The position numbers and the translations under genes were made by a program. A stretch of DNA of 64,000 bases from Apostichopus japonicus (taxonomy: Eukaryota > Echinodermata > Holothuroidea > Aspidochirotida > Stichopodidae): assembly GCF_037975245.1 (NCBI RefSeq), contig NC_092568.1:11557501-11621500 (forward strand), in the 5' to 3' direction. The notes under the pieces were generated by a model. The model did no database searches and was not told where the DNA came from. It saw only the letters and a list, made by a program, of their open reading frames with translations. Shown here one piece after another: positions 17,238 to 52,011 of the stretch (its first letter is position 1; every line of letters begins with the position of its first letter).

Positions 17238-18205
17238 AGTGTATTTATTGTATAGGATTTTTGTTTTCCGATGAAGTGAATGTGCCCATAATTATACCCA
17301 ATGGTGCTTTTCAAATGTACTTATTATACCATATGTGTGCATGTTGTAGACATATATTTAAAAGAGAATTTTATTCTTGTGTGCAAAGTTGAAGAAAGTG
17401 TCTCCGTTTTTGGTTTAAGTTTCAACTTTATTAGTCATGATAAAGGCCCTAAGGTACACCCGGATGTTATATAGATACGCGTCTTTCTTAATTTAAGTTT
17501 AATCACTTGTCAGATGTGACTTTGTTGAAGTATATTTATGTCTGACATATCAATAAGGACGAATCAGAAGCAAACTTGAAGATTTCTAGATGTGAGTCCA
17601 CCAACTGGGTCCTCGCCCTGGTTTCACCCTGCACCTCATCAGGGGCCCTAATGCGGGCAACTAGACCCCATCCGATAAAGTCTTTCAACCAAGTTTTACC
17701 CATGTTCAGTCACCCCCCCCCCCCCCCCGACTGATCAATTGCGATGACGCCCCCTCCGTATATAGGTACTGTTAAGTGTTGTTACGTCCCACAGGTATGG
17801 TACAGATCGAGCAGCAACAATCTGTTTTGTGGAACCACGTATTGTGAAAAACAAGTTTTTGAAGATCTCTTTACACTTTCCATTCCGTATACATATACCC
17901 TTAGAAATGGCTCACAAGTTTTGCATTTGTTTGGTTTCTTAAGGACTTTTTACAATGTTAAAAAAAAATGATTGGTCACTTCATTGCCTTAGGTTAAGAC
18001 TCTACGTAAAATAGCAGATAGTGTGAGCTGTTGATCTTCAATTTGCTTCCAGCGACAAGCAGGAAGTAGCTTCTATGTGTTGAATGTCTGTAATATGTTT
18101 ACTGTGTGCTGTGTGTAACTGTACGAGATCAAGTATATGCGGCATGTGTATCAACAAGTATTATGTAGTAACATACCTAGTAACATTATAACCTTACAGT
18201 GAACT

Positions 18206-19149
18206 GTTTCTATCATGTTTACTAAAATAGTGATTAAAGCTGGTTCAAAACCATTGCGGTTAACTTGTTGTTAACGTTGACCTTTATTGATGACTGAAGG
18301 CTGAACGTTACTATCAAACATCGTTGTTGATAAACTGATGTCACAGCCCATTTTCCACAAACGATTAACATAACACTACATATTTGGGATAGGTTGCAGA
18401 TCTGTCGGGGGAATGCCCCCAGTGCCCTCTTTAGCGCCGCCACTTTTGACATGAAAGAATACCATCAATTTTCACTTTTCACAGAAACAGATTGCCAACT
18501 TTATAACAATGAGTATCAATACAAATCAGAACGCATTCACACAAATGAATTTGGTATTAATACGAATTAGTATCAATAAAAAGTACGATATTGGACATTG
18601 AGTCATTTTAAAGTATTCATAGTTCCCTTGTTTTTTATTTTTATTGGGACATGGAATATTTTCTCTTGATCTTAGAGTAAAAGTTTTCTCAATTACTTTC
18701 TTTCTCTGTTACTTTTAGTATCGGAAATTGAATATTTGTTTTCCTTTTAAATAATATTATATCTCTCTATCTATTTCGCTATTTTGTTCGGTATCGGACA
18801 GAATGTCAATGATGGGTTTTTCTCATTATAATAATGCAAGGGTTCTAATGACGTATCCGACGAAGCCGGTGTAGCAAATACAGGGGAATGCTTGGACTTA
18901 CACATTATTTTCAAAAATTGTGAACATTGAACTCGCGTAGGAAACGATTAGGGTCAATGATGGGTCGTTCTCGTTATAATAATGCTCGGGTTTTTTGACG
19001 AAGTATCCGTTTTTAAAGTTTCTTAACATTTTAATTCGCCTTATAAAATACTTCTTCTCGACGAAGCCGGTGCAGCCAGTCCCGGGTTAACATTTGGAAA
19101 TCTCGCCGTAGTCACGAGATTTTAGGTGTTTTCGCGTGGCAGGGTAATA
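18206..19149. other. gene-free stretch within arm A
   Basis: No gene seen. A block with TCAATGATGGGT and ATAATAATGC is present twice (about 18808 and 18957), each followed by CGACGAAGCCGGTG, a local duplication of roughly 150 bases. A CGCCGCCACTTTTG near 18440 resembles one transposon end without a partner. Confidence 0.4.
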
Positions 19150-19543
19150 ATAATAATAATAATAATACACAGTTCTTATAAAGCGCAAATGCACACTTAA
19201 GTCTCAGTGCGCTGATAATTATTAACCCCTGGTCATTGGTAACTTGTCATACCCACACACCAAAGTGTGCACAATTCAATCAATCTCTCCTGGGGCACCA
19301 CAGTGCACCACAACCACGTGTCCCCCGGGGGACTTCCCATAGGGTGCAGCCACAAACCGGCGCACGCAACTATATTTACAAGTTACCTCGCAGGTCCCCA
19401 TTTATACACCTGGGTGAAGAGAGGCAATGGAGATAAAGCGCCTTGCCCAAGGACACAACGCAATGATCTGGCCAGGGCTCGAACCTGTAATCCTTAGATC
19501 ACAAGTCCACTGCCTTAACCACTTGACCACAACGCCCTCCTGG
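19150..19543 (-). mobile_element. tRNA-derived SINE
   Basis: On the minus strand the element begins with a tRNA-like head: GTGGTTAAGGCAGTGGACTT (box A) and GGTTCGAGCCC (box B) between 19540 and 19470. A body follows with GCGCTTTATCTCCATTGCC and CCCAGGTGTATAAATGG, and the 3' end GCGCTTTATAAGAACTGTGT runs into (ATT)7 at 19150-19169. This layout, tRNA head, body and ATT tail, is that of SINEs common in marine invertebrates. It lies in the part of arm A that arm B lacks, so it either inserted after the duplication or was lost from arm B. Confidence 0.75.
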
Positions 19544-20705
19544 GTAGTCTATAGTTGCTCCATTCCTTGAACACTTGAAGTTTTCAATTGTCATACTGCG
19601 TTTTACTTGGAGAAGGTACAGCTTGGAGTTTTTTGTTCAACTACCACAGGAAACCAAGACAACACCTTTGATAAGACACATCATCATGAATTATACAGGC
19701 TACACAAAGTGTCACAATTGTTTGTTCCGGTGATCTCAGCGACATTGTGAGCTATAACAAATATGTTAACTTTGAAGGGATAGCCTTATAAACCGTCTCC
19801 TCCACCTCTCCCCAACTAGCCGCGGATGAAAAAATTGCATTTGCATTTGTATAAAGATACCAGTAAAATTCCTGAGATGGTAATGATATGTGTCTGGCAC
19901 GCATAACCTGGTCACTGCAGGTTTACTCATCTCTGCTAGTAACGTAAACGTCACATCATATCAACGCGCAGAACGGATTATCACAATATCATGATTACAA
20001 GAAAACACAACACCAAGCAACAGCAATATGAGAATGCGTCAGTACACCGGGGCTGTTGGTGGGTTATTGTGAACGAGTAAGAGTGCCACAGACCATTATT
20101 GCAACAAATATTTGTAACAGAAAAACAGGACTGATTGACGAAGTTTTTTATACCAGAGTATATAACCATATACAATATCGAATACTTCTGTTGTAGACAA
20201 ATGTGAATAACCTCGCAGAAGGCAACGAATCAACTATCTTGAGAATGGAGGCTGCGAATGCACTTGAAGCTTTGAAGTTTTGTTTACGCTGTCTTAATGA
20301 TATTCTGGTATAGAACTCCTATTTTTACGCTATCAATGTACTGTATCAATTTAATTAAAAGCATATTGTTCGCGGAGTATTCAATCTACCGTGCTGCAAC
20401 TAGTTAATATTCATATCTATATTTATATTTATATTATTAATCGATATGTCTTATGATCATCGTTTTGTTGCACTTTATGTTGCATTCGTCATAATCAAGT
20501 CTAAAGTCTAATGGTTACCAAGCAAATGTTCTATTGTGACTCGTAAAACATAATATATGGAAACAGTAAGGCGTATGAAAACACTAAGGCGATTTGTAAA
20601 TATATTTTAGATAAAATATATTATGTGAGCTTTCCTAAACTTAATGACCTTAATGAACTTAATATAGGGCGTTATATCATCCTAGGGATGGTTCATGAAA
20701 ACGTT

Positions 20706-20714
20706 CTATAAATA
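20706..20714 (+). promoter_or_regulatory. candidate TATA box upstream of ApoL-like copy 1
   Basis: CTATAAATAG at about 20706 is a good TATA match 550 bases upstream of the first visible ApoL-like exon and outside the duplicated segment; copy 2 lacks it. The intervening first exon was not identified. Confidence 0.3.
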
Positions 20715-50516: not shown

Positions 50517-50655
50517 CTTGAAAGCATTGAAACTAATTGAGTTATATATTTATACTTCATATGTGATCAGGGCATAAGAAGGATGATCATAATTATACTT
50601 TGCGCACTTACAGTAAAAGTGTAATGTTATTAATAAGAACTAGTGACGAAGACCA

Positions 50656-51224
50656 GAAATACAAATCATCCGTCTTGCACAACTACAGAACATTGTTGCA
50701 CGAATTGTCACCCGTTCCAAGCCAAGGGAATATGTCGCACATATTCTGAGATAATTACACTGGCTCCCGATCAAAGACCGAATTATTGTTAAAATATTGA
50801 TTTTCACATATCGCTAATTTGTTAGAACTTCGCCAATCTACTTGTCAGACCTTCTGCAACTATATCACGCAAATCGTAGTTTTATGAGATCAGACAATGA
50901 ATTACTTCTGTGTGAAAGTCGCTCAAAACGATCGTGGGGCAAAAGGGCTTTTGCTGCTGCTGCTCCTTGTTTGTGGAACAGCCTTACAGAACATTTAAAA
51001 CACAGTCCATATCTTGCTTCTTTTAAACGCTCTCTCAAGACACATCTGGTGAACAGTTTAATTCATTGTTCATTGTTGCCTATTTTTGCTTGCATTTTTG
51101 TTTTGTACTATTTTCACTGTTTTTTTTTTGGTTTTGCTGTCGCACTGTTTGTGTCACTGCGCCATGAGCGTCTTTTTTGACGGATACCGGCGCATTATAA
51201 TTGTCCATTATTATTTATAATAAC
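50656..51224 (+). pseudogene. CR1/L2-like LINE, 3' end fragment
   Basis: Plus-strand frames give LHWLPIKDRIIVKILIFTYR, then YLSDLLQLYHANRSFMRSDN, GKRAFAAAAPCLWNSLTEHL and a KRSLKTHLV end. This is the standard C-terminus of CR1/L2-type ORF2. Stops occur before the main open segment (50842-51180). A short 3' UTR with GGCGCATTATAATTGTCCAT and TTATTATTTATAATAA follows. It sits in arm B where arm A has 2.9 kb of other sequence, so it inserted or replaced sequence after or during the rearrangement. Confidence 0.75.
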
Positions 51225-51880
51225 ACAATTTCACTGTAATGTTACAATGTTACTAGGTATATTACTATATAATACTTGTTTTATACACATGACGTATATA
51301 CTTGTTCTTTTACAGTTACATACAGCACATGGCAAACATATCTTAAATGATAACGATGCTAGGTCTGTGTCTACATCGTTACTACATAATACTTGTTTGT
51401 ACACATGAGGTATGTACTTGATCTTTTACAATTACACACAGCACATGGTAAACACACCACAGACATTTAACACATATAAGTTACTTCCTGCTTGTCGCTG
51501 GCAGCAAGTTGAATATCAACAGCTCACCCAAATGCGTCAACCTACACTACTATTTTTACCAGCTTTAATCACTATTTTTTGGCGAACATGGTTACACAGA
51601 TTCACGGTAAAATGATAACGTTGCTAGGTCTCTTACTCTATCGTTACTACGTAATACTTGTTTGTAAACATGACGTATGTACTTAACCTTTACAGTTACA
51701 CACAGCACTTGGTAAACATATCAGAGATGTTCAACACATAGAAGCTACTTCCTGCTTGTCGCTAGCAGCAAATTGAAGATCAACAACTTACCCAAATGCG
51801 TCAACCTACACTACTATTTTTACCAACTTTAATCACTGTTTTTTGCGAACATGGTTCAACTTACACTACTTTCTTACGTA
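51225..51880 (-). repeat. 265-base tandem repeat, 2-3 units
   Basis: CGTTACTACATAATACTTGT (51377) and CGTTACTACGTAATACTTGT (51642) mark two units 265 bases apart, with a shortened third at 51230-51355. Each also contains AAATGCGTCAACCTACACTA and TTCCTGCTTGTCGCT. Arm A holds a single inverted unit at about 18000-18205. Confidence 0.8.
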
Positions 51881-52011
51881 GAGTCTTAACCTAAGGCAAA
51901 GAAGGGCCCAGTCATTTTTTGGACGTAAAAACACTTAACTATACCTATAGATCTGGAAGCGGGGGCGTCATCGCAATTGATCATAAAATCATAAAATTAT
52001 AAAATATTATC

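Follow-up and report, generated by a model that had tools for sequence, protein, structure and literature searches.

Human Y chromosome palindromes that undergo conversion are reported to exceed 99.9% arm identity (PMC3723533), and the arms of the human Y palindrome P6 and of X palindromes are described as >99% alike through conversion (PMC3723533, PMC8981503). In amphioxus, the multigene VCBP immune locus is described as containing pseudogenes and the debris of mobile elements besides inverted repeats (PMC2632668). For the APOL proteins, a membrane-insertion domain and a pore-lining region have been described, and APOL1-4 are attributed to gene duplication (PMC8358165). Helix-loop-helix and four-helix regions are also described for these proteins (PMC8316464).

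The locus described here lies in a 64-kb window (the whole stretch of Apostichopus japonicus DNA that was analysed) and can be compared with each of these systems. Like P6 and the X palindromes it has inverted arms around a spacer, but its arms are 88% identical and show no tract signal. Like the amphioxus VCBP locus, it is a multigene region of an invertebrate in which inverted repeats occur together with putative pseudogenes and mobile-element remnants, although the genes are unrelated. The hydrophobic regions of both gene copies would fit the membrane-insertion domain and the pore-lining region known from the APOL family (PF05461; APOL1-6), whereas the family score is barely at the cut-off in copy A and below it in copy B, and both copies are frame-broken. 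We interpret the locus as probably an old inverted duplicate of an ApoL-like gene that is under relaxed constraint, with at least one copy decaying.

In this sequence, the two arms do form an inverted duplication. Self-comparison of the window places core arm A at 21121-23960 (+) and core arm B, inverted, at 50653-47653 (-). The main core match (21121-23734 against 50653-48003, inverted) scores 2,922 bits with the low-complexity filter off and is continued by a match of 23720-23947 to 47917-47668; among 20 first-order Markov windows, compared with the filter on, no inverted match exceeded 48.2 bits. On the spacer side, strong similarity ends near 23960/47653, beyond which 80 aligned columns of weaker similarity (57.5%) extend to about 24040. 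The outer end of arm A has a C-run immediately before 17732, and that of arm B is followed by an AT tract (52012-52158) that begins 29 bases past 51983.

An earlier sequence-only reading had proposed inverted arms that match over ApoL-like exons with their intron and 3' flank, plus a separate flanking block, around a spacer of ~23.5 kb. Self-comparison and alignment of the arms bear this out for two exons in each arm, with an inverted co-linear match, the order kept, coordinates that are nearly identical and a spacer of the proposed size. Both arms have a co-linear flank and a gene in common in inverted order, as in a local inverted segmental duplication. The same reading had placed the genes head to head, which is incorrect: the coding frames of A lie on the + strand and those of B on the - strand, so the genes are convergent (tail to tail), with their 5' sides facing outward (Table 1).

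Table 1. Features of the two arms and the spacer, in positions of the window
Feature	Position	Strand	Basis
Outer block, arm A, upstream of gene A	17732..18244	+	inverted match to 51230-51983
Arm A stretch without detected arm B counterpart	18245..21120		no match in B 50653-51225 (E 0.01)
Gene A long exon (ApoL-like hydrophobic region)	21260..22115	+	AG before, GT after, aligned with copy B
Gene A putative intron	22116..22925	+	GT...AG, both ends align in copy B
Gene A C-terminal exon with stop	22926..23216	+	open frame 22806-23216
Arm A shared 3' flank	23217..24040	+	87.5% and 88.1% identity to 23960, then 57.5%
Spacer	24041..47569		ORF Pfam scan, Rfam, tRNA and tandem-repeat searches
Arm B shared 3' flank	47570..48513	-	alignment to A; GTTT-rich tract 47895-48007
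Gene B C-terminal exon with stop	48514..48801	-	open frame 48514-48831; acceptor present
Gene B putative intron	48802..49660	-	GT...AG aligned with A
Gene B long exon	49661..50516	-	open stretch 49866-50549; remainder in another frame, further stop
Arm B stretch without detected arm A counterpart	50654..51224		no similarity to A stretch at E 0.01
Outer block, arm B, internal tandem repeat	51225..51983	-	inverted match to arm A outer block and tandem-repeat search

The outer block aligns between the arms in five pieces of 79-87% identity (four at 84-87% and one gapped piece at 79%), and the core segments align at 87-90%. The proposal that a single block was duplicated is supported by the common order and by outer-block pieces that look about as old as the core segments. 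Within the outer block of arm B is a tandem repeat with a 264-bp unit and 1.9 copies (51345-51856). Between the outer block and the core there is no match at E 0.01 (A 18245-21121 against B 50653-51225), and the sequences separating gene from outer block, 2.9 kb in A and 0.57 kb in B, are mutually unrelated. ORF 50818-51180, in the arm B stretch, was considered as a LINE tail, which we took it to resemble, as we took ORF 9700-10323 to be LINE-like. This identity was rejected, as the ORF has no Pfam match and its comparison with ORF 9700-10323 was unsupportive (E 0.35).

The long exon of each copy is preceded by AG and followed by GTAAGT, the intron is ~0.8 kb, and the predicted borders align between the copies. 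These splice borders look intact in both copies, and the sites are presumably in use. The C-terminal exons share 77% protein identity over 102 residues. In the long exon of gene A, a stop at 21647-21649 closes the first frame, and the sequence is then open in another one (open stretches 21227-21649 and 21639-22163, +). In the long exon of gene B, the first frame runs as far as 49866, the remainder is in a different frame, and there is a premature stop besides the frame break.

The relationship to ApoL is local and borderline. With the Pfam ApoL profile (PF05461, cut-off 25.9 bits), the A piece 21227-21649 scores 26.1 bits and the long-exon piece of B scores 19.8 bits, below the cut-off, and of the 298 profile positions the match covers 65-140 in A and 65-124 in B. 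The X-bridged reads of the long exons score lower (A 21.3 and B 17.7 bits, both below the cut-off) and leave the matched range unextended. Neither the second half of the A long exon nor either C-terminal exon alone has an ApoL match up to E 1. The description 'ApoL-like' given in the sequence-only reading is carried by the match in A and not by B or by the two bridged reads; we consider the label fair, with membership in the ApoL family not secured.

Hydrophobic 19-residue windows occur at about residues 37-72 in the long-exon piece of A and 40-70 in that of B, and each copy has a single hydrophobic segment in its C-terminal exon. An intact protein from such a gene would be helical and insert into membranes, with hydrophobic regions contributed by both the long and the C-terminal exon, an arrangement that would match ApoL proteins. 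A structure model of B 49866-50474, made without an alignment, has a mean pLDDT of 38.4 and is too poor to use. A profile of the C-terminal exons weakly meets the end of the long exon in both copies (E 0.084 and 0.16).

The NCBIfam matches are weak and far below cut-off, and include alpha-pore-forming bacterial proteins (E about 0.06). A phage repressor as structural relative (best PDB sequence match, E 0.0092) and a poxvirus family as relative of A (Pfam, 14.2 bits against a cut-off of 25) were both judged to be chance matches. For the aligned long-exon pieces, 225 viral-contig and 89 genome-contig peptide-pattern matches yielded no confirmed relative, in scans that used few patterns and prokaryote or viral collections and so say little about animals. 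No third copy of either exon was found above threshold among the six-frame stretches of at least 25 aa in the window. Among the matches listed, by title, in the open-licence literature, we found no paper on an invertebrate ApoL gene family; a paper on the louse is presented as concerning two other apolipoproteins, not ApoL (PMC8545670).

Of 2,789 aligned sites in the core arms, 334 differ (~12%), and divergence is flat along the arms, with K2P distances of 0.147 for the long exon, 0.118 for the intron, 0.112 for the C-terminal exon and 0.138 and 0.131 for the 3' flank (exon borders here differ by 1-2 bases from those of the codon analysis). The sequence-only reading had suggested gene conversion between the arms and hairpin RNA, and neither suggestion is upheld. 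When the positions of the differences were shuffled 5,000 times along the arm alignment, the longest identical run of 55 bp was reached in 1,183 shuffles, and the minimum of 9 differences per 150 sites was equalled or undercut in 3,363, so neither test detects conversion tracts between the arms. Identity near 99%, the mark of a converting palindrome, is found neither across the arms as a whole nor in tracts. The only unusual feature of per-site divergence is a patch within the duplicated long exon where divergence is above average: the maximum of 35 differences per 150 sites, matched or exceeded in 39 of the 5,000 shuffles, falls within 21604-21754 and is about twice the mean divergence. In 34 codons of this patch (21640-21760), synonymous and nonsynonymous divergence are both raised (dS 0.325, dN 0.272). 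The patch at 21604-21754 is also a possible trace of exchange with another relative.

The existence of inverted arms is what would recommend an active palindrome, in which the arms exchange sequence by gene conversion and form hairpin RNA. We regard this as extremely improbable given the 88% identity and lack of conversion-like tracts, the spacer of ~23.5 kb and the orientation of the genes. Because the genes are convergent, their sense transcripts would be alike and not complementary. A hairpin would require a single transcript across the whole spacer, and the longest perfect stretch is that same 55-bp run. Homogeneous old conversion may be compatible with a comparison of the two arms alone.

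Codon comparison gave dN 0.134 and dS 0.127 over 371 codons, a dN/dS of 1.06 (bootstrap 95% 0.72-1.66); with slightly different borders the ratio was 1.05 over 370 codons. These values derive from 373 compared codons, two of which were dropped for a stop in one copy (one premature in B, the other ending B one codon early), and they leave out bases 21638-21659 beside the frame break of A and codons with gaps. Indels number 2 in 1,146 exon sites versus 27 in 1,643 sites outside exons (Fisher p 7.5e-5), and both exon indels are frame-breaking and located in the long exon, one per copy. This paucity of exon indels suggests that the frame was probably maintained during some of the time over which the copies diverged; base composition or simple repeats could explain part of the difference between exons and flanks. 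Stops are not in excess, with 2 seen against a mean of 3.98 in simulations with 137 random substitutions (2 or fewer in 710 of 3,000 runs). Amino-acid constraint is not seen and frame constraint appears to have left a trace, a combination that we read as relaxed selection followed by loss, diversification being the chief alternative.

The interpretation as an old duplicate is based on the co-linear inverted matches, the flat K2P values, the dN/dS of 1.06 and the frame breaks in both copies, together with the lack of any excess of identical runs and of a third copy in the window. We hypothesize that an old segmental duplication produced a second copy of an ApoL-like gene with both flanks, inverted, convergent and ~23.5 kb away. 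Each arm would afterwards have gained or lost its own upstream sequence, the copies would have diverged without detectable exchange, and the pair may now be under weak or no constraint. Both the single event and the loss of function are inferred from these patterns. Copy B is most likely a pseudogene, and copy A could be a recent pseudogene or else a gene in which the assembly has a base-count error. The depletion of exon indels, the apparently intact splice borders and the number of stops, which is not in excess, would argue against decay.

Two of these observations, the strong depletion of exon indels and the kept splice borders, would fit instead with both copies being working, fast-diversifying immune genes, in which the frame breaks are assembly base-count errors or polymorphisms and a dN/dS of ~1 reflects a mixture of constrained and positively selected sites. 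In mussel, an 'Apolipoprotein L' transcript heads the hemocyte non-shared list given in one table (PMC4581086, Table 3). We consider this reading of the two copies rather unlikely, as the confidence interval of dN/dS spans 1, dS rises with dN in the most divergent patch, and B carries a premature stop besides its frame break. Somewhat doubtful, but possible, is that both loci belong to a larger, dispersed family of ApoL-like genes and owe their inverted placement to separate insertions or to rearrangement at a later time. Exchange with an unseen third relative could then explain the patch of doubled divergence, and between outer block and core the two arms carry unrelated sequence; however, outer block, core and 3' flank keep their order and have similar divergence, and the window contains no third copy. 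A dispersed family is compatible with relaxed constraint, its probability overlaps with that of the old duplicate, and the probabilities of the alternatives do not sum to one. It is very unlikely that the arms are an assembly artefact produced by the inverted joining of two haplotypes or of a collapsed repeat. The arm ends do adjoin low-complexity tracts, where joins can fail, but in our judgement 12% substitutions and 29 core indel events look too many for alleles.

As it stands, the old duplicate would be ordinary, a further example of an old inverted gene pair whose copies are decaying. It would gain importance only if both genes turned out to be expressed and to evolve fast, because few descriptions of ApoL-like genes seem to exist outside vertebrates. 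Primate APOLs evolve fast. It is a long shot that the pair represents rapidly diversifying invertebrate ApoL-like immune effectors, with frames kept, amino acids changing at the neutral rate and the patch at 21604-21754 marking exchange with an unseen third family member. If true, this would extend the fast evolution of primate APOLs to an invertebrate.

Ten of the 16 stop-to-stop ORFs of at least 90 aa in the spacer were scanned against Pfam, and none reaches a cut-off (one has a sub-cut-off match, E 0.048); the ten scanned are not the ten longest of the 16. No Rfam family at gathering score and, in a bacterial-code scan, no tRNA was found in the whole window. The spacer contains a minisatellite (30231-31354) with a 146-bp unit and 7.8 copies and, near arm B, a short direct repeat (46331-46510 and 46628-46811) with 91% identity over 185 columns.

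Other features occur outside the arms. ORF 54876-55775 is intact and single and encodes 299 aa; it reaches no Pfam or NCBIfam cut-off, its PDB matches are no better than E 0.32, and none of 69 genome-contig pattern matches was confirmed as a relative; its structure model (mean pLDDT 46.9) is too poor to use. Putative reverse-transcriptase remnants are located at 11253-11612 and 13621-13914 (-), with RVT_1 scores of 26.6 and 23.7 bits that do not reach the cut-off of 29.6. A dispersed direct repeat of about 40-120 bp occurs at 6555, 9397, 12640, 13341 and 17030, and another dispersed repeat, of about 150-240 bp and ~70% identity, at 1604-1835, 43489-43634, 55944-56209 and 62451-62660. The whole region is flanked by a 2.9-kb direct repeat with 89% identity (309-3113 and 61112-63997, ~61 kb from start to start), the second copy of which ends at or near the end of the window.
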